DNA from: a virus
Virus record (IMG/VR): IMGVR_UViG_3300032236_001041
Location: 1-45,399 of that record
Strand: one strand, 5' to 3'
Length of the DNA: 45,399 nt
Shown: piece by piece, positions 1 through 45,399 of the stretch
Layout of the letters: every line of letters starts with the position of its first letter
Numbering within the stretch: the first letter of the stretch is position 1
Notes under the pieces: generated by a model
What the model saw: the letters and a program-made list of their open reading frames with translations, nothing else
Database searches by the model: none
Told to the model about the DNA's origin: nothing
Program-made: the position numbers and the translations under genes

Positions 1-123
1 AGTCTTTTACTGTAAATACTTGAAACTTTTACACCTGCAGAAACATCTAATAAATAAGTGTTGCTGCTGTATCCATCAAACTCATGTGCTACCTTTACAG
101 TTGCTCCAAATGTCTTTAATATA
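1..123. repeat. Terminal overlap of circular contig (copy 1)
   Basis: Identical to 45277-45399. The join lies inside a single open reading frame on the minus strand that stays in frame and completes an FtsK-type domain. The repeat is therefore best read as assembly overlap of a circular or circularly permuted genome, not as a biological terminal repeat. Confidence 0.93.
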
Positions 124-1208
124 TGCTCTATCTTTTGTGCCTGTGTCATATCTGTTTTGCTTAAATCGTATTGAATAAATGCGGCTGCATTAGCCTTGAA
201 TTTTTTAATAATGGAAGGGTTAATCATTTCTATAGAAGAATCCTTAATCTTTCTTAAACGCTTTGCAACAAGCTCTTTCTTGCTTTCTTCTACATTAAAA
301 TCTTCTACATCACAAATCATAGTTCGTGCCCAGAAGTCGTACAGCTCTGCCATGTCTATAAAGTTGTCTGATTGATTTATAATGTAGGTATGGTCAGGAT
401 CGTTAACAGCCTCCAGCATTCTTTTAAGTGGCTCATATAATAAAGCCTCATAAAGTTTTCTTGTATTGCTGTCTATAGGTAGTTTGAAAGCGTTTAACTG
501 TGAGCTTCTATCCTTGTTTTGTGAGTACTTATTTTCAACAAACCAAACCTCATCCACATTCAGCCCTGTTTTTGCTTCATACCCTAAAACGTAGGTTATA
601 GCCTGGCACCCGATAGAAAGAGCAATTTCTTCCTCACTGGTAAACGTTGACTTGCTTTTATGGTCAATGATGGCTATTTTACCTGATTTAGTTCTCACTA
701 CTAAATCTATTACAAGATGGCAAGGCAATGGAATATCTACACAGTTTACCGTTAAAAACTCTTCACATCTTACTTCTACATCTAATACCACTGCTATATC
801 ATCAGTGTAAACATTGTTCTCAGAGATGAAATTATAAAGCAATGCAGTAGCTGTTTTATTAGCTTTGATAATACACTCTTCTACTGTAGGAGTTGTCTTT
901 TGTAACTTCCAGAAGTTAGCAGGTATTTCTGCAATATGCTGAAATGCTATTTGCTCAAGCTCCGGCAACTCTATTGCTTCACCATTTAATTTAAGTGAGG
1001 TAAAATATAATTCAAGTGCTTTATGGTAAGCTTTACCTGCTGCCGCTGATGAAGAGTTTTTAGAGAACACTCCAAAGATGTAATTCATCTCAAAAGCTTT
1101 CTCATTCCTGGCAAATGATGTAACTTTAGAATAGGACCAGCTATTTATTAAGAACTGGCTAAACAAGTTCTCTAATTGATCTGTGTCGTATGATTTATAT
1201 ATGTGCAT
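1..1208 (-). CDS. RecB-like PD-(D/E)XK nuclease fused to FtsK motor (N-terminal 402 residues; continues at 45276)
   Basis: N-terminal part of a 693-residue protein whose gene crosses the circle join; the C-terminal part is at 44403-45276. The start ATG overlaps the recT stop (TAATG). Residues about 20-210 carry the RecB/Cas4-type nuclease motifs: an early S-x-S segment, G-x-x-x-H62, D168, D182-H-K184 and Q202-x-x-x-Y206. I see no iron-sulphur cysteine cluster. From about residue 385 the sequence matches the alpha part of FtsK (a short GVKVSSIYSKR-like stretch), which continues past position 1. Known for the families: such nucleases resect DNA ends and are common partners of RecT annealases, and FtsK motors translocate along double-stranded DNA. 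Inference: a self-propelled exonuclease that makes single strands for RecT. The family calls are firm; the joint activity is not tested. Confidence 0.88.
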   Translation of the reverse strand, partial: MHIYKSYDTDQLENLFSQFLINSWSYSKVTSFARNEKAFEMNYIFGVFSKNSSSAAAGKAYHKALELYFTSLKLNGEAIELPELEQIAFQHIAEIPANFWKLQKTTPTVEECIIKANKTATALLYNFISENNVYTDDIAVVLDVEVRCEEFLTVNCVDIPLPCHLVIDLVVRTKSGKIAIIDHKSKSTFTSEEEIALSIGCQAITYVLGYEAKTGLNVDEVWFVENKYSQNKDRSSQLNAFKLPIDSNTRKLYEALLYEPLKRMLEAVNDPDHTYIINQSDNFIDMAELYDFWARTMICDVEDFNVEESKKELVAKRLRKIKDSSIEMINPSIIKKFKANAAAFIQYDLSKTDMTQAQKIEHILKTFGATVKVAHEFDGYSSNTYLLDVSAGVKVSSIYSKR

Positions 1209-2026
1209 TATGGAAGGGTTACGGTTGTTTTAATGTTGTTTTTAGCTTCCTTAACTTCCTCCTCTTTCATTTCTATAGCATCATTATCAATGTAGGTTAC
1301 ATCATGAGTTTCTACATCGTTTATTACAGCTGCATCAGATATTACAGCAGTCTGCATTTCTACTGATAAAGGAGCAAACTTTGAAAGTAGAAGCTTAATA
1401 ACTGTCTTACTTGCCATTGTATCAAAGTCTGTATTCCAAAGGCCATTGTCATTACTAAAGGTTTTTGAATACTTCTTTGCGTGTGATTTAAGTTCCTCGA
1501 TAGTCATATACCAGGTACTTTCAAACCCATTAAGAAGCTTAAATCTTGCAGCATACCCAATAACCTTATCAGATGTTTTCTTGTTAAAATCGAATACAAA
1601 CCCATCTAAAGGATTAGCTTCTAAAATCTGTCCTTCAAACACTGGTGTTGAATAGATACTTTTAAACTGTCCGCTTCTTTGTGCGAGTTGGATAAACCCC
1701 TTGTAACCCATTTGGAATTGAGCTACTTGTTTAGTTTGCCAAACTCCTTTTTCATCCTTAACCTTTTGATTGTAGGGAACTATGTAAGCAAACCCTAAAT
1801 TTTGGTTAAGAGGCAAATCCAAAGTAGCTGCTACTGCTGCTGCCTGATACACACTTACAGGATCTGCTTTGCTCAATAGGTTATTCTGTGAAACTATCTG
1901 TAAAACAGATGTCATAAAAGAACTGGCTCTTTTGCCTAAAAGTTCGCTAAATTTCTTTTTAATATCATCCCTTTCAAATAAGGATTTAGCTGATACTAAC
2001 TGATTGTTTGTTGCCATGATTATCAT
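1208..2026 (-). CDS. recT: RecT-family single-strand annealing protein
   Basis: About 270 residues, the normal RecT length. It has the typical N-terminal region followed by the core with NLGFAYIVPYNQ and QFQMGYKGFIQLAQRSG, and a tail rich in acidic residues and threonine. RecT proteins bind single-stranded DNA and anneal complementary strands in phage recombination. The ATG overlaps the upstream stop (ATGA), and an internal ATG three codons later is an equally good start. The nuclease-FtsK fusion follows directly with a TAATG overlap, so the two are almost certainly made from one message and act together. Confidence 0.93.
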   Translation of the reverse strand: MIIMATNNQLVSAKSLFERDDIKKKFSELLGKRASSFMTSVLQIVSQNNLLSKADPVSVYQAAAVAATLDLPLNQNLGFAYIVPYNQKVKDEKGVWQTKQVAQFQMGYKGFIQLAQRSGQFKSIYSTPVFEGQILEANPLDGFVFDFNKKTSDKVIGYAARFKLLNGFESTWYMTIEELKSHAKKYSKTFSNDNGLWNTDFDTMASKTVIKLLLSKFAPLSVEMQTAVISDAAVINDVETHDVTYIDNDAIEMKEEEVKEAKNNIKTTVTLP

Positions 2027-2690: not shown

Positions 2691-2769
2691 ACGTTTAAAA
2701 TTTAAAAGGCTGCTGACTTACTTTAACCGAGTCAAGGCTTATTTTCAGTCGATTAATGTTTAATTGTTT

Positions 2770-2985
2770 TTAGTTTAATCTTGCAGCCTTTCGTTTGCTT
2801 ACTAATCCGGTGTGAACCGAATTGTTATTTTTGCGAGGATTGAGCCTCTGTAATTCACTTTTTAAAAACGCTTTTGCTTTAGGATCAGTTACTACCTTTA
2901 ATCTTTCTGTGTAGTGTCTGATAGAAAACTCTGTCATAGTTTCTACTGATGCGGTAACTACTCCGTGGAATGTTGTATTTTTCAT
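2770..2985 (-). CDS. Small basic hypothetical protein (71 aa)
   Basis: Not recognised. Basic, helical, ending in a K/R-rich tail (SKRKAARLN), so nucleic-acid contact is possible but unproven. It starts one base after the upstream stop. About 80 bases without an evident gene separate it from the next frame. Confidence 0.6.
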   Translation of the reverse strand: MKNTTFHGVVTASVETMTEFSIRHYTERLKVVTDPKAKAFLKSELQRLNPRKNNNSVHTGLVSKRKAARLN

Positions 2986-2986
2986 A

Positions 2987-3250
2987 TTAAGCTACTTTAG
3001 TTTGTAATTCTTCAACAAGCACTATTGCTGATACAAGTACCTGGTTCTCAAGAATGGTTAAATGATTGTTTTCGCTATCTATCTTCACATTGATAGTAGG
3101 AGTGTAAACACATTGAAAGCATCTTACAAACCCGCATAAGTCAGATAATGTAACCCACTGGTCTTTCTTTTGAGCACCGTTGATAATGCCATTTATAAAC
3201 TTTGTTAGATCAGTTTCTTTGTAAACCGTATGCGTGAATTTGTTTGTCAT
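2987..3250 (-). CDS. Hypothetical protein (87 aa)
   Basis: Not recognised. An 87-residue soluble protein with two nearby cysteines (FVRCFQC) in the middle. It overlaps the end of the upstream 62-aa gene by 41 bases in another frame, an unusually long overlap even for this compact operon; a later start is possible. Confidence 0.6.
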   Translation of the reverse strand: MTNKFTHTVYKETDLTKFINGIINGAQKKDQWVTLSDLCGFVRCFQCVYTPTINVKIDSENNHLTILENQVLVSAIVLVEELQTKVA

Positions 3251-3398
3251 GTAAAGCGTTGTTTAAATCGTTATTTGATAAGTGATATAGTTTATCTTCT
3301 TTTGAAATTGCTGCCCAGATTAACCCCTCTGGATGGGTAGGCTCTTTCATTATTACCTGAACCACAACCCCATCAACCGTTAACCACTCTCCTATCAT
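3210..3398 (-). CDS. Small hypothetical protein (62 aa)
   Basis: Not recognised in function. The opening (IGEWLTVDGVVVQV) and the HPEGLIWAAISKED region resemble small beta-rich proteins seen in Bacteroidota phages. It overlaps both neighbours (3373-3398 upstream, 3210-3250 downstream), which supports co-translation within the early-left operon. Confidence 0.6.
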   Translation of the reverse strand: MIGEWLTVDGVVVQVIMKEPTHPEGLIWAAISKEDKLYHLSNNDLNNALHDKQIHAYGLQRN

Positions 3399-3585
3399 TC
3401 GGCTGTATTTTTATGATTCTATTGTTTCTCTTTTTAATAATCTCTCTTATATCAATTTTACCCCCGTTGGGAGCTGGAGCAGAGAACTGCTCCAGTGAAC
3501 CCCTCAACCTTTCGGCTGAATCAATTACAGCTTTTGAAGCCTTAATTATTTTGTCTAATTCGTTTATGATATAATTGCTATCCAT
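3373..3585 (-). CDS. Small hypothetical protein (70 aa)
   Basis: Not recognised. An N-terminal helix with regular hydrophobic spacing is followed by a basic tail (IIKKRNNRIIKIQ). It starts five bases after the Cro-like gene, so it is the second gene of the early-left operon. Confidence 0.6.
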   Translation of the reverse strand: MDSNYIINELDKIIKASKAVIDSAERLRGSLEQFSAPAPNGGKIDIREIIKKRNNRIIKIQPNDRRVVNG

Positions 3586-3590
3586 TACAA

Positions 3591-3812
3591 TTAACTTTTA
3601 GCTGCTAACACTGATAAAACCTCATACATCTTTTTGGCTACTTTAGGCTTCTTTGCTTCGCCTCTTAAGTATCTGTAAACCGTTACAACATCACAGTTCA
3701 GTTTTCTTGCTGCCTCAGCTTTATCTTTCCCTGATAAAAGAGAATTATTTAAACTCTTTAGCTTTTCGCTGTAAGTTTCCAGTGTCTCTTGTTTAGTACT
3801 TGTATTTGCCAT
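3591..3812 (-). CDS. Cro-like helix-turn-helix regulator (73 aa)
   Basis: First gene of the early-left operon, divergent from the CI-like repressor with a 110-bp operator region between. The segment KAEAARKLNCDVVTVYRYLRG reads as a helix-turn-helix of the XRE/homeodomain-like kind, with Y and R residues in the recognition helix. By position it should act as the lytic-side regulator (Cro or anti-repressor). Whether it recognises the same operators as CI is inference. Confidence 0.75.
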   Translation of the reverse strand: MANTSTKQETLETYSEKLKSLNNSLLSGKDKAEAARKLNCDVVTVYRYLRGEAKKPKVAKKMYEVLSVLAAKS

Positions 3813-3840
3813 TTATTTTGTTTATCTTTGTTTGACATTG

Positions 3841-3872
3841 CAAATATATACAAAGTATTTACAAAGTACAAA
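3841..3872 (-). promoter_or_regulatory. Early-left promoter with tandem 11-bp operator repeats
   Basis: On the minus strand TTTG (3869-3872) and TATATTTG (3841-3848) are 20 bp apart, fitting the Bacteroidota TTTG-N19/20-TAnnTTTG promoter. Two direct repeats, TACAAAGTATT (3849-3859) and TACAAAGTACA (3860-3870), fill the spacer at 11-bp period, where a bound repressor would block polymerase. The same repeat family occurs at 40125-40157. Confidence 0.72.
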
Positions 3873-3922
3873 ATATTTTACGAAGTTTTTTAAAATAATT
3901 TTTATAAACTTAACTAAGAATC

Positions 3923-4585
3923 ATGGAAAACATAGAACTGATAGGGATTGTAGAGGATTTAAAGGCTAAAAGAATTATATATTCAAATAAGGATTTAGCC
4001 GATACTTTAGGCTATAGCGAGCCTACAGTATCTGGATATTTAAGTGGCAGAGTAAAAGTTTCGAAAAACTTTGTAACTAAGTTCGAAGATACTTTTGGTA
4101 TCAAAGTTTATAATTCGGAAAACATTTCACCGGATTTTCGTGGCCACTTACAGGAAATAAAGCTCTCTGAAAGAAAGAAAAATCAAATAATTTACACAGA
4201 TGTCGATTTCTCTGCTGGTACATCAATTGAGTTTTTCGATGATAACCAAATGATCCAGTCTGCTTATACAATGGATATACCAGAGTTTAAAGGCACAATA
4301 GCGTTCAGAGCATACGGAGACAGCATGGAGCCATCTATTAAAAGTGGGAGCATTGTTTTTGCTACTAAAATCGAGGATTGGACCAGTCATTTAGAATATG
4401 GTCAGGTGTATGGCATTGTCTGTAATGATAATCGTAGATACTTAAAGTACATTAGAAGGAGTAAAAAAGAGGCTACGCACTTTCTGTTAAAGTCAGAGAA
4501 TGAGTTTTACGATGATTTCGAATTGCCAAAGGATAAAATAAAAAACATTTGGTTAATTCATGGATGGCTTAATAAAAGAACTTAA
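3923..4585 (+). CDS. CI-like phage repressor (HTH plus S24 peptidase)
   Basis: 220 residues. The N-terminal helix-turn-helix (SNKDLADTLGYSEPTVSGYL, about 21-40) is of the XRE type. The C-terminal half is a LexA/S24 self-cleavage domain: S134 in GDSMEP, K175 in RYLKYI, and a candidate Ala98-Gly99 cleavage site in FSAGT. Known for the family: it keeps lytic promoters off and cleaves itself when RecA is activated by DNA damage. The divergent operators next to it (3841-3872) and the related ones at 40119-40157 are its likely targets. No strong promoter of the local type is visible upstream of it. Confidence 0.9.
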   Translation: MENIELIGIVEDLKAKRIIYSNKDLADTLGYSEPTVSGYLSGRVKVSKNFVTKFEDTFGIKVYNSENISPDFRGHLQEIKLSERKKNQIIYTDVDFSAGTSIEFFDDNQMIQSAYTMDIPEFKGTIAFRAYGDSMEPSIKSGSIVFATKIEDWTSHLEYGQVYGIVCNDNRRYLKYIRRSKKEATHFLLKSENEFYDDFELPKDKIKNIWLIHGWLNKRT

Positions 4586-41571: not shown

Positions 41572-41931
41572 TTACTGACTATTTACTTGATTATCAATAT
41601 ATTCTACCTGCAATAATTCACCCGCTAAAATCTTATCCAGTACGGCTTCTATTGTGTCTCTTTGCTTTGGTGATAGTAATGCAATCTTTTCGGTTATTGC
41701 ATCTACAGTAAAGCTATCTGATGCCCATTCTTTGCGAATACCTTCACGTACTACATCAGGAAACCATATAGAAGTTACAAAGACATTTTTAGCACCTTCA
41801 ATACGGTTAACTACATTGCCGATTAATTTAGCTCCTACGCTTTCTTTTCCTGCTGTTCTCATAGCATCCTCTAATAAGTCTTTTGCTTGCTTTAGCTTGG
41901 TTATGCCGTTTATTATGTTTGCGTTACTCAT
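41572..41931 (-). CDS. Hypothetical protein (119 aa) between methyltransferase and DndC-like genes
   Basis: Not recognised. Mostly helical; overlaps the methyltransferase part B stop by four bases (ATGA) and ends three bases before the DndC-like gene. The tight arrangement suggests that it works with the modification genes. Confidence 0.6.
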   Translation of the reverse strand: MSNANIINGITKLKQAKDLLEDAMRTAGKESVGAKLIGNVVNRIEGAKNVFVTSIWFPDVVREGIRKEWASDSFTVDAITEKIALLSPKQRDTIEAVLDKILAGELLQVEYIDNQVNSQ

Positions 41932-42773
41932 AGTTGATTAAATAGTTTATCGGTTATTAATTGCACCACATCTACAGTCACAGCATTGCCGCACATTTTA
42001 TAGCGATTAGTTTTGCTTATTGGTTTTATTACTCCATCGTAATTACCAAATGCTGTATGCCCGTCTTTAAACCCCTGAAGTCTTTCGCATTCTATTTCTG
42101 TCAACCTTCTAATTTGGTAATCCTGTTGAAGTAAATTATCTTTTTGAGTAGCACACGTAATAGTGTTCATTTCCTCGCTTTCTTCAAAGCGCATTTCTTT
42201 ACCTTGAAACGGTGTATAATCTTTACCGTTTTTAAGACTTTCTTTTCTTATCTGTTTAGCCTCTTCTGTTCTGCGTGGTTTACCGATTAAAACCCCTTGA
42301 TTACATTGGGTGTCTAAGGTTTGTCCTACTCCTACTCTTCCTCTTCTTGTTTCCGAATCGGGGAAAGTTAGGTTAATAGAATCCCCTTCACTTGCTTTCT
42401 CGAATCCTTTTTTAGTAGCTGATTTTACTTTAACAGAAAACCTTCCTGCTGACTGGTCGATAGTAGGGCTTAATCCCTCTGCATCAAATATTCTGTTTTG
42501 TTGGTAAGGTTGCTTGCCGCCACTTTCGGTGCTATCGTTTATCTGTGTTACTTTTATCATATCCCAACAATGTTTTTTAGTAAATGTCATACCCCCCCCC
42601 CCGATCTTATTGTCGGTATTGTGTCCTGATTGAATAATGTCGTGAATGTGTTCATATTCTATAACCATTTTAGGTTCTTTATAATCTCTACTGCATAAGC
42701 AATACATTTCATCATTATTAATGTCTATCCCTTTTCTTCCAAATGATGCTTTTCCAGCCTTAAATCTTTTCAT
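41928..42773 (-). CDS. C5-cytosine methyltransferase, part B (target recognition region and motifs IX-X)
   Basis: 281 residues. The middle (QPYQQNRIFDAEGLSPTIDQ onward) resembles the variable target-recognition part of phage C5 enzymes. The end has motif IX (IRRLTEIECERLQGF, 221-235) and motif X (NRYKMCGNAVTVDVV, 256-270), which part A lacks. A run of 11 G on the coding strand (42592-42602) encodes Ile-Gly4. It is either the second subunit of a split enzyme, as in the AquI methyltransferase, or the 3' part of a broken gene. Its ATG lies 14 bases inside the restored end of part A, as in coupled genes. Confidence 0.78.
   Translation of the reverse strand: MKRFKAGKASFGRKGIDINNDEMYCLCSRDYKEPKMVIEYEHIHDIIQSGHNTDNKIGGGGMTFTKKHCWDMIKVTQINDSTESGGKQPYQQNRIFDAEGLSPTIDQSAGRFSVKVKSATKKGFEKASEGDSINLTFPDSETRRGRVGVGQTLDTQCNQGVLIGKPRRTEEAKQIRKESLKNGKDYTPFQGKEMRFEESEEMNTITCATQKDNLLQQDYQIRRLTEIECERLQGFKDGHTAFGNYDGVIKPISKTNRYKMCGNAVTVDVVQLITDKLFNQL
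42592..42602 (-). repeat. Poly-G tract (G11) in methyltransferase part B
   Basis: Eleven C on the plus strand, that is G11 in the coding strand, within part B. Very unlike the AT-rich surroundings. Tracts of this length slip readily in replication and in sequencing. Confidence 0.95.
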
Positions 42774-42875: not shown

Positions 42876-43583
42876 TTACACACGAAGTAACGTCATACTG
42901 CTGTGCATCCCCCCGCTGTGTCCTCCGGCTGTTATTGTGTTTACTACCCCCCCCCCGTTATTTCTATCTCCTGTGGCTTCGATTGACCCTTTAGCAGCCC
43001 TGCAATCGTTTTCTGTGATAGGAAATACTCTTTGCTTACGTTCTGTTCCAGAATATCCGACAATGTAATACCTCTCTCTGTTTTGGGGGAGTAGGAAAGC
43101 TGTATTAAGAAGCTGCATTTCAACTGTGTATTGTGGCAAATCTGTATTAAAGTAGGTAAGAAATCGAAGTGCCTCGTAGATACTTCTACCTTCATTGACA
43201 CTGGACAATCCTTTGACATTTTCAGCAATGAAAATCTTAGGTTTAGCTTCCATAATGACTCTACCTGCTTCAAATAATAAACTGCTTCGTGTACCTGATT
43301 CAAGTCCTTTGCGTTTTCCAGCAATAGATATATCCTGGCAAGGGAATCCGAAAGTAATAACGATTGTTTCTGTTGGGTGTTGTTCTCTGATTGATGTTCC
43401 TGAAACATCGACAACTGATCCGATATATTCTGCATCTGGAAAATTATATTTATAGTTTGCAATAGCGTGTTTATCTATCTCTGAAAAATAGCATTTAGTT
43501 ATATTGAACCCTGAGCGTTTAAATGCTTCATGAAAGCCACCTATACCGCTAAACAGTTCAATTAATACAATATCCTTACTCAT
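42876..43583 (-). CDS. C5-cytosine methyltransferase, part A (catalytic motifs I-VIII)
   Basis: Start at ATG 43583 (MSKDIVLIELFSGIGGF), eight bases inside the upstream gene; an in-frame ATG at 43592 adds three residues. Motif I FSGIGGF (11-17), motif IV with catalytic C82 in GFPCQDIS, motif VI E121-N-V, and motif VIII QNRERYYIVG (167-176). The frame stops at 42876, but protein-like coding resumes in another frame to 42760 (VNDRGVIRDTEISTCIDANY, WKGTDQHGARTLI). Either losing one GT unit near 42880 or gaining one G in the G6 tract at 42909 restores it to about 273-275 residues. It transfers methyl to cytosine C5; the target is unknown. Confidence 0.85.
   Translation of the reverse strand: MSKDIVLIELFSGIGGFHEAFKRSGFNITKCYFSEIDKHAIANYKYNFPDAEYIGSVVDVSGTSIREQHPTETIVITFGFPCQDISIAGKRKGLESGTRSSLLFEAGRVIMEAKPKIFIAENVKGLSSVNEGRSIYEALRFLTYFNTDLPQYTVEMQLLNTAFLLPQNRERYYIVGYSGTERKQRVFPITENDCRAAKGSIEATGDRNNGGGVVNTITAGGHSGGMHSSMTLLRV
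42909..42914 (-). repeat. Poly-G tract (G6) near the frame break
   Basis: G6 on the coding strand. Adding one G would join the frame of part A to the coding stretch that follows, so this is one candidate site of the break; the GTGTGT just before the stop is the other. Confidence 0.8.
42947..42956 (-). repeat. Poly-G tract (G10) in methyltransferase part A
   Basis: Ten C on the plus strand, G10 in the coding strand, encoding Gly-Gly-Gly and the first base of Val in part A. In the assembled length the frame reads sensibly on both sides. Confidence 0.95.
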
Positions 43584-43908
43584 ACACTTCAACTATTTCC
43601 TCGTTAACAATGGTTGCTCCTACTTCTGTATCTAATGAAGCAACTACCAGCTTAACCTTATTTCTATTGTCAATCATGTTTAACATGATTATACAAAGAG
43701 AAATTACACTTGCTAAGGCATTCTTAATATGCTGGTCTGTAACCTTACCACCTTTATACTTCTTTGTGCAGGCAAGGATGGAAACTTTACCCAATGCATT
43801 AAATATTATTGCACATTTAGCGGCATCATGCACTGGTAGCCTTTTCTTTAAATTTCTATCGAATGCTTTTTGTATTAAAGCGGCATTCTTGGTTGTTAGT
43901 ATGTTCAT
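43576..43908 (-). CDS. Hypothetical protein (110 aa)
   Basis: Not recognised. Helical, with a hydrophobic segment (ALASVISLCIIMLNMI) that could be buried rather than membrane-spanning, and an acidic end (VNEEIVEVYE). It precedes the methyltransferase with an eight-base overlap and so may be coupled to it. Confidence 0.6.
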   Translation of the reverse strand: MNILTTKNAALIQKAFDRNLKKRLPVHDAAKCAIIFNALGKVSILACTKKYKGGKVTDQHIKNALASVISLCIIMLNMIDNRNKVKLVVASLDTEVGATIVNEEIVEVYE

Positions 43909-44402: not shown

Positions 44403-45399
44403 TTATGGTTTATAGAATGCCTGAAATCTTGTTGTATTAATGTATTCAGGAGATTTTATTAAAGCATCTCCTTTCCCTGCTAATCCTTTTGCCCCTTCTT
44501 CGTCAAGTACTACTTTTGAATCTATATCTGTAGGCATCTGTAAGCATATTCTTACAGGAAAATTAGTTTTAGTATTACCATTGATTACTTTAACATCTGC
44601 TCTCTGAGTAGCTGCTATAACACGCATGCCACATGATCTACCCTTTTGAACCAATATTTGCAAATTCTCTTCTAAAGACTTTAACCTTCCGGCTACAACT
44701 CTTTTTAATTTAGGGTTACCATTTGCATAAATTCCGTCTTGTACTGTCTCGTAAACATTTAATTCATTTCCAGACTTAGCTCTGCCAATAGCATCTGCAA
44801 ACTCTTCAAAAATTACAAGCGTAAGTTCTTCTCTTTTCGTTTTCTGTAAATTATCCATATACTCTACAATCTCTTTCGCCTTAGTTTCTATATCTTCTAT
44901 TTCATGGAAAATATGTACATTGCTTTGAGGAGGTAAATCGGCATAATCTAGTTTAGGGTCAAAAATTACAATGTTCTTAACCCCTGCTAAAAGAGCATAG
45001 TGAATTATACTTTTAATTAATACTGACTTACCTGAACCAGTTGTGCCACAAATCAGTGCATGTGGAGTAGATTGGTTTGCTAAATCCCATACTATAGTGC
45101 TTCCAAGATTATCTTTACCTAAAGGGATTTTTAACCCGTTTAACTCCTTCTCGTCAAACATCAGGTTCTTTTCTCTCTTTTTGGTGAAGTCAATACCTAG
45201 ATAACTTTTGCCTTCATATATTACCAGCTCGCTTGAAATTCTAACATTTGATACATCTAAAGCATTCGCTATATCCAGTCTTTTACTGTAAATACTTGAA
45301 ACTTTTACACCTGCAGAAACATCTAATAAATAAGTGTTGCTGCTGTATCCATCAAACTCATGTGCTACCTTTACAGTTGCTCCAAATGTCTTTAATATA
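44403..45399 (-). CDS. RecB-like nuclease-FtsK fusion (C-terminal part; FtsK motor)
   Basis: Continuation of the gene at 1-1208; residues 403-693 use 45276 to 44403. The frame stays open through the join: the stretch up to ATG 45161 reads KRLDIANALDVSNVRISSEL and KSYLGIDF, the FtsK alpha domain. The motor has Walker A G480-T-T-G-S-G-K486-S487, Walker B LTLVIFEEFAD (554-564), AATQRADVKVI and the LDEEGAKGLAGKGDAL signature. The FtsK gamma (KOPS-reading) domain and membrane part are absent. The internal ATG at 45161 is probably not the true start. Confidence 0.9.
   Translation of the reverse strand, partial: ILKTFGATVKVAHEFDGYSSNTYLLDVSAGVKVSSIYSKRLDIANALDVSNVRISSELVIYEGKSYLGIDFTKKREKNLMFDEKELNGLKIPLGKDNLGSTIVWDLANQSTPHALICGTTGSGKSVLIKSIIHYALLAGVKNIVIFDPKLDYADLPPQSNVHIFHEIEDIETKAKEIVEYMDNLQKTKREELTLVIFEEFADAIGRAKSGNELNVYETVQDGIYANGNPKLKRVVAGRLKSLEENLQILVQKGRSCGMRVIAATQRADVKVINGNTKTNFPVRICLQMPTDIDSKVVLDEEGAKGLAGKGDALIKSPEYINTTRFQAFYKP
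45277..45399. repeat. Terminal overlap of circular contig (copy 2)
   Basis: Exact copy of 1-123; see that entry. After removing it, the circle is 45,276 bp. Confidence 0.93.

Follow-up and report, generated by a model that had tools for sequence, protein, structure and literature searches.

The DNA analyzed here, referred to as the window, is the whole 45,399-nucleotide stretch of IMG/VR virus record IMGVR_UViG_3300032236_001041. Next to a recT gene it carries the parts of an open reading frame in which a RecB-type nuclease appears to continue into an FtsK DNA motor across the two ends of the record. A sequence-only reading of the window had proposed a single-chain motor-exonuclease that feeds RecT. 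We asked whether this fused gene is real, with which partner genes it occurs, and what the pair might do.

A nuclease-FtsK gene spans the join of a circular phage genome

The first 123 bases of the window are repeated directly as its last 123 bases, so that the genome is a circle of 45,276 bp. On the minus strand a frame stays open for 693 codons, from 1208 down to 1 and then from 45276 down to 44403 (Table 1); the chance of such a frame at the base composition of the window is ~1e-19. The repeat and the open frame together confirm the continuous 693-codon gene of the sequence-only reading, including the TAATG shared by the recT stop and the fusion start. The interval under which it had been described (44403 to 45399) holds the motor end, and the whole gene also requires 1 to 1208.

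As the ends of the record split the gene, the fusion might be an assembly artefact of the join, which we consider exceedingly improbable. The frame is intact, and the join falls at residue 403, inside a stretch whose conservation extends to relatives with no break at that point. Family-alignment and nuclease-half scans found the same chain in at least 195 loci, counting the window; many of these loci repeat one contig, and the relatives are not located at a join. We rejected the artefact because homologues carry the continuous chain, with 99 further non-identical relatives encoding it.

The window also encodes an integrase, a CI-like repressor, a DnaB helicase and a terminase large subunit, and from these genes the phage looks temperate. 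On the minus strand, two ORFs (41928-42773 and 42876-43592) make up a split C5-cytosine methyltransferase, one for the N-terminal catalytic part and one for the C-terminal part.

Table 1. Features of the nuclease-FtsK locus in the window.
Feature	Position	Strand	Remarks
Fusion gene, 5′ part	1..1208	-	residues 1-402; nuclease ~240-1208; FtsK alpha domain begins ~1-149
Fusion gene, 3′ part	44403..45276	-	residues 403-693 and stop, beyond the circle join
Subregions of the 3′ part	alpha domain end to ~45189; FtsK motor ~44412-45137; Walker A 45024-45047	-	
Terminal direct repeat	45277..45399	.	identical to 1-123; assembly overlap of the circular genome
recT annealase gene (PF03837, phrog_148)	1208..2026	-	overlaps the fusion start as TAATG
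RecT C-terminal tail codons, T-V-T-L-P-COOH	1211..1225	-	proposed docking peptide, common to fusion-linked annealases of other families

The fusion joins a Cas4/RecB-like nuclease to an FtsK-type motor

Pfam profiles above their cut-offs place PDDEXK_1 at residues 23-223 (E 3.5e-10), FtsK_alpha (PF17854) at 354-432 (1.9e-8) and FtsK_SpoIIIE (PF01580) at 450-613 (4e-11), so the order is PD-(D/E)XK (RecB/Cas4-type) nuclease, FtsK alpha domain, FtsK motor; the product of the upstream gene matches RecT (2.6e-46). The nuclease motifs are H62, D168, D182-H-K184 and Q202-A-I-T-Y206, and those of the motor are Walker A GTTGSGKS at 480-487, ATQR at 625 and GAKGLAGKGDAL at 664, all at the positions given in the sequence-only reading. 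Across 26 aligned relatives there is no variation at H62, D167, D181-H182-K183 and Q201 (numbered as in L031, a relative described below) or in the Walker A core, and next to none at the motif tyrosine. The chain has the D, D-x-K, Q-x3-Y and fold of RecB/Cas4-type nucleases and, by Pfam and fold, the alpha and beta motor of FtsK/SpoIIIE proteins with Walker A/B. No family match was found in it for the FtsK gamma winged-helix domain, the ORF ending with the motor, for NurA, in place of which PDDEXK_1 matched, or for YqaJ (PF09588).

The motor scores alike with the DUF87/HerA and FtsK profiles (43.8 vs 43.2 bits); its alpha domain and best structural matches are those of FtsK. An AlphaFold model built from 26 alignment rows has a mean pLDDT of 83 and a pTM of 0.49, the latter meaning that the domain arrangement of the full fusion is not predicted. 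In the PDB the motor matches FtsK (2iut, E 1e-22; dsDNA-bound 6t8o and 6t8g) with ~26% identity to the E. coli and P. aeruginosa motors, and lower in the list of matches to the fusion are Cas4-like ACE1 and AdnA. By alpha domain and fold, the motor is best read as an FtsK alpha-beta motor rather than HerA, and the nuclease is Cas4/RecB/AdnA-like, not NurA; Pfam and fold matches agree with the earlier claim that an FtsK alpha/beta motor follows a RecB-family nuclease.

The fusion is carried by many Bacteroidota-type phages

A full-protein scan found 28 loci in IMG/VR (53-63% identity in the best segment) and 6 in bacterial genomes: two in Flavihumibacter and one each in Dysgonomonas, Wenyingzhuangia, a Bacteroidetes MAG and a short contig of a Sedimentibacter MAG. 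This last member (L031), on a 4.9-kb contig assigned to Firmicutes, is possibly mis-binned phage DNA. The bacterial genomes with the fusion have an FtsK-type gene of their own in addition. Among 395 Bacteroidia genomes searched, only the two fusions already known turned up, so prevalence in chromosomes is low; the fusion is carried by many Bacteroidota-type phages.

Taking the best 80 loci per scan, we counted 100 non-identical fusions among the matches listed, and in these the motor is always joined to the nuclease in the same order. Every nuclease match continues into the motor in frame, except for one probable frameshift in the Walker B region (L028); the motor of L029 runs off the end of its contig. 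In another fusion (L030, 3784-6687; 967 aa) an intein-like insert interrupts the Walker A loop, a position that fits an essential ATPase site; the insert begins CLSADT and ends VHN ahead of Ser.

Nuclease-half scans found no halves encoded as separate, unlinked genes, and nuclease-half patterns gave no split or standalone nuclease half among the IMG/VR matches listed. In INPHARED (50,697 annotated phages) the nuclease half has no match at E 0.01, and the exact nuclease-FtsK architecture was not found among the annotated phages or plasmids searched. The second-best match in BFVD is a 400-aa PD-(D/E)XK nuclease superfamily protein of virus sp. ctkyY8, spanning 461 alignment columns. A search of open-licence papers returned none that describes a nuclease-FtsK fusion.

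Annealase and annealase-like genes of many families precede the fusion

Of 98 non-identical loci that could be judged, 97 have an SSAP or SSAP-like gene upstream of the fusion; two further loci end at a contig edge and stand outside the count. In 95 it is directly adjacent; in two it is displaced, by an HNH-like gene (L090; ORFs 2764-3477 and 3477-4004) or by ~1.6 kb (L176). The one exception (L085) has a small helix-turn-helix-like gene directly upstream instead. Partner and fusion overlap or lie ≤5 nt apart in 88/97 cases, with an ATGA overlap in 55/97 and a TAATG overlap in 15/97.

Grouped by BLAST, the upstream proteins fall into ten clusters that are unrelated by that measure, four of them assigned as annealases by position alone: phrog_3657 (31 loci with L176), RecT/phrog_148 (20), Sak4-like AAA_24/phrog_1366 (15), an orphan cluster (8), RecT/phrog_561 (7 with L090), ERF (5), Rad52_Rad22 (4), Bet-like RecT (3), the L055 partner cluster (3) and the L083 partner cluster (1). 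The three RecT clusters, one of them Bet-like, fall in one Pfam family. RecT, ERF and Rad52 are thought to have a common Rad52-like fold and Sak4 is RecA-like, so the partners comprise at least two folds. The recT adjacency noted earlier thus holds as adjacency to an annealase or annealase-like gene, RecT being one of about ten partner types.

Partners have been exchanged often. A quick tree of 98 fusions, built without a mixture model, requires 40 or more switches of partner class, against a shuffled mean of 59.5. One fusion (L018) is less than 2% different from its relatives L016-L020, yet its partner is RecT in place of phrog_3657.

Members of the partner families that lack the fusion are often followed by a YqaJ-type nuclease gene, and 4 of 7 replacement nucleases tested reach the Pfam cut-off for PF09588. 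This exchange indicates that the fusion stands in for the exonuclease of a SynExo pair, and the SynExo feature of an annealase gene adjoining the exonuclease gene is found at these loci (95 adjacent and 2 displaced of 98). The constant fusion, the upstream gene and the shared slot together support a motor-nuclease of one chain that has an annealing protein as its partner. Alternatively, the annealase may be a mere neighbor of a motor-nuclease that clears host or rival DNA or processes intermediates of replication or packaging; FtsK-HerA motors with nucleases reportedly occur in defence complexes as well. We regard such a non-recombination role as improbable, given that YqaJ-type recombination nucleases exchange with the fusion in its slot, that an SSAP-type gene overlaps it at almost every locus and that the window has a separate terminase large subunit.

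The largest partner cluster belongs to phrog_3657 (L016:430-1266 and relatives), a family of unknown function that stands ahead of either the fusion or YqaJ nucleases. It is likely an unannotated annealase family. Its model has a predicted beta-beta-beta-long-helix order and no PDB match below E 0.001 (best, Gp77 at 0.03), so the proposed role rests on position and on the beta-beta-beta-alpha prediction. Three partner clusters (L012/L015/L027/L029; L055; L083) have no Pfam or informative PHROG match and mostly end in -[LM]P or similar; they are candidates for new annealase families.

Fusion-linked annealases share a short C-terminal tail

Fusion-linked partners of all clusters tend to end alike, with -[LM]P-COOH in 74/97 and the looser -[LM][PLM] in 90/97; the position before the last is Leu or Met in 95/97 and the final residue Pro in 74/97. 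Among the exceptions, L078 has -EEMP behind an in-frame stop, and most others have ends such as DLNMA or FDLPS. The strict tail is found in 6/684 background ORFs of the same loci, two of the six being the displaced annealases of L090 and L176, and in 1/174 fusion-free proteins from three of the partner families. Within families it accompanies the fusion: 15/20 with vs 0/50 without for phrog_3657 (Fisher 2e-11), 13/14 vs 0/55 for Sak4-like proteins (Fisher 4e-13) and 13/20 vs 1/69 for RecT. These counts come from related sequences among the 80 best loci of each search; the p-values ignore relatedness, and the partner exchanges on the tree are therefore the better argument.

One could see in the tail a by-product of translational coupling, in which the ATGA or TAATG where the fusion begins, along with its initiation region, sets the last codons of the upstream gene. 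The 55 ATGA and 15 TAATG overlaps fit this view, and CCATGA reads Pro-stop. We find it very unlikely, as the tail is kept at non-overlapping junctions (12/25 strict, 19/25 in the looser form), at gaps of 47-214 nt, and in both displaced annealases (-EMP in L090 with a gene between, -QMP in L176 across its longer gap). Leu is written by six codons and Pro by four, and the third base of Pro is free in TAATG junctions. Retention without gene overlap and the use of several codons place the tail at the protein level; the non-overlapping and displaced cases largely refute an overlap by-product.

The tail might instead bind a phage or host SSB or the replisome and merely co-occur with the fusion in one phage group. 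SSB-type tails are known C-terminal plugs. Redβ, moreover, also binds SSB (PMC8303780). This alternative appears unlikely: inside the same partner families the tail tracks the presence of the fusion, not the family, and whether it ends in P follows the fusion tree when shuffled within partner families (16 changes vs a mean of 20.5; 5/500). The same tracking gives modest support for co-evolution of tail and fusion. A column scan of the fusion for a docking site gave nothing clear. On a neutral account, exchange breaks the partner gene within its 3′ end and the tail codons hitch-hike with the fusion gene; this could explain the gain of the tail, though not its retention through synonymous turnover and displacement.

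As a separate observation, Sak4-like proteins without the fusion (L317-L338) often have SSB-like tails (DDDPF..., ...GF, ...ENF), and at several of these loci the next gene starts like an SSB (RGVNKVIIVGTLG).

That different annealases carry the same short tail suggests a plug of universal fit, through which the machine could take different partners. From its distribution we infer that the tail is a portable C-terminal docking peptide that binds the motor-nuclease. Likely, -[LM]P-COOH is a common plug for at least two annealase folds (Rad52-like RecT/ERF/Rad52 and RecA-like Sak4) onto one FtsK motor-nuclease, with the annealase exchanged wholesale, the resection machine constant, and an incomer gaining the tail on joining the fusion. 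The tail on fusion-linked annealases is new here; a search of open-licence literature with general SSAP-exonuclease and SSAP-SSB terms found no description of it.

Proposed mode of action

Probably, the fusion is the exonuclease half of a SynExo-type phage recombinase: a RecB/Cas4-like PD-(D/E)XK nuclease riding on its own FtsK-type dsDNA pump, with the annealase held by its tail. FtsK motors pump duplex DNA as hexamers, and RecB/Cas4-type nucleases cut single strands at ends. By analogy, the FtsK half would assemble as a hexamer on the duplex at a DNA end and pump it in an ATP-driven manner, while the attached nuclease domains would degrade one strand, presumably the 5′ strand, leaving a 3′ single strand. 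The co-translated annealase, tethered through its -[LM]P tail, would be loaded on the new single strand and could then serve annealing, recombination-dependent replication or break repair. Annealases of different folds would be exchangeable because just the short tail must fit. Two studied systems offer precedents: bacterial NurA-HerA resects 5′ ends in a manner coupled to its translocation (PMC9960219), and the C-terminal domain of Redβ binds lambda exo, presumably so that Redβ is loaded on the 3′ overhang (PMC8303780). The single-chain motor-exonuclease feeding RecT of the sequence-only reading survives in its fused chain, its upstream SSAP or SSAP-like gene and its YqaJ slot, and is widened in that the partners are not RecT alone.

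If correct, the fusion is a phage analogue of HerA-NurA, a resection enzyme of one chain that propels itself and loads annealing proteins. The hand-over of single strands from exonuclease to annealase, a long-standing question, would become directly testable, the handle being a C-terminal peptide of two to five residues that can be moved between proteins. The pairs could be used for recombineering in Bacteroidota, and the tail could serve as a rule for spotting unannotated annealase families such as phrog_3657.

Comparison with known systems

As in the SynExo pairs (lambda Exo-Redβ, RecE-RecT, YqaJ-RecT), the exonuclease gene adjoins an annealase gene. In lambda the C-terminal region of the annealase binds the exonuclease (PMC8303780), a part proposed here for the tail. 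The fusion differs from these pairs in that its nuclease is Cas4/RecB-like and joined to an FtsK dsDNA motor, and its partners come from many families with a common short C-terminal tail rather than a domain. With HerA-NurA it shares the coupling of a nuclease to a ring dsDNA translocase from the FtsK-HerA superfamily (PMC9960219), whereas the fusion is a single chain of bacteriophages with an FtsK alpha-beta motor and a PD-(D/E)XK Cas4/RecB nuclease in place of NurA. The counterpart of HerA-NurA proposed earlier therefore stands as an analogy of working and not as membership.

FtsK/SpoIIIE translocases, including the phage phrog_1358 proteins, likewise have FtsK_alpha and an FtsK motor with FtsK signatures; the fusion differs in its N-terminal nuclease and in ending with the motor, with no gamma match. 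AdnAB, AddAB and RecBCD also tie a RecB-family nuclease to a motor for end resection, and AdnA is among the fold matches of the fusion. Their motors are SF1 helicases on single strands, whereas that of the fusion is an FtsK pump of duplex DNA. By the features tested, the fusion belongs to neither YqaJ/lambda exo nor HerA-NurA, and by analogy it would work like both the SynExo pairs and HerA-NurA.
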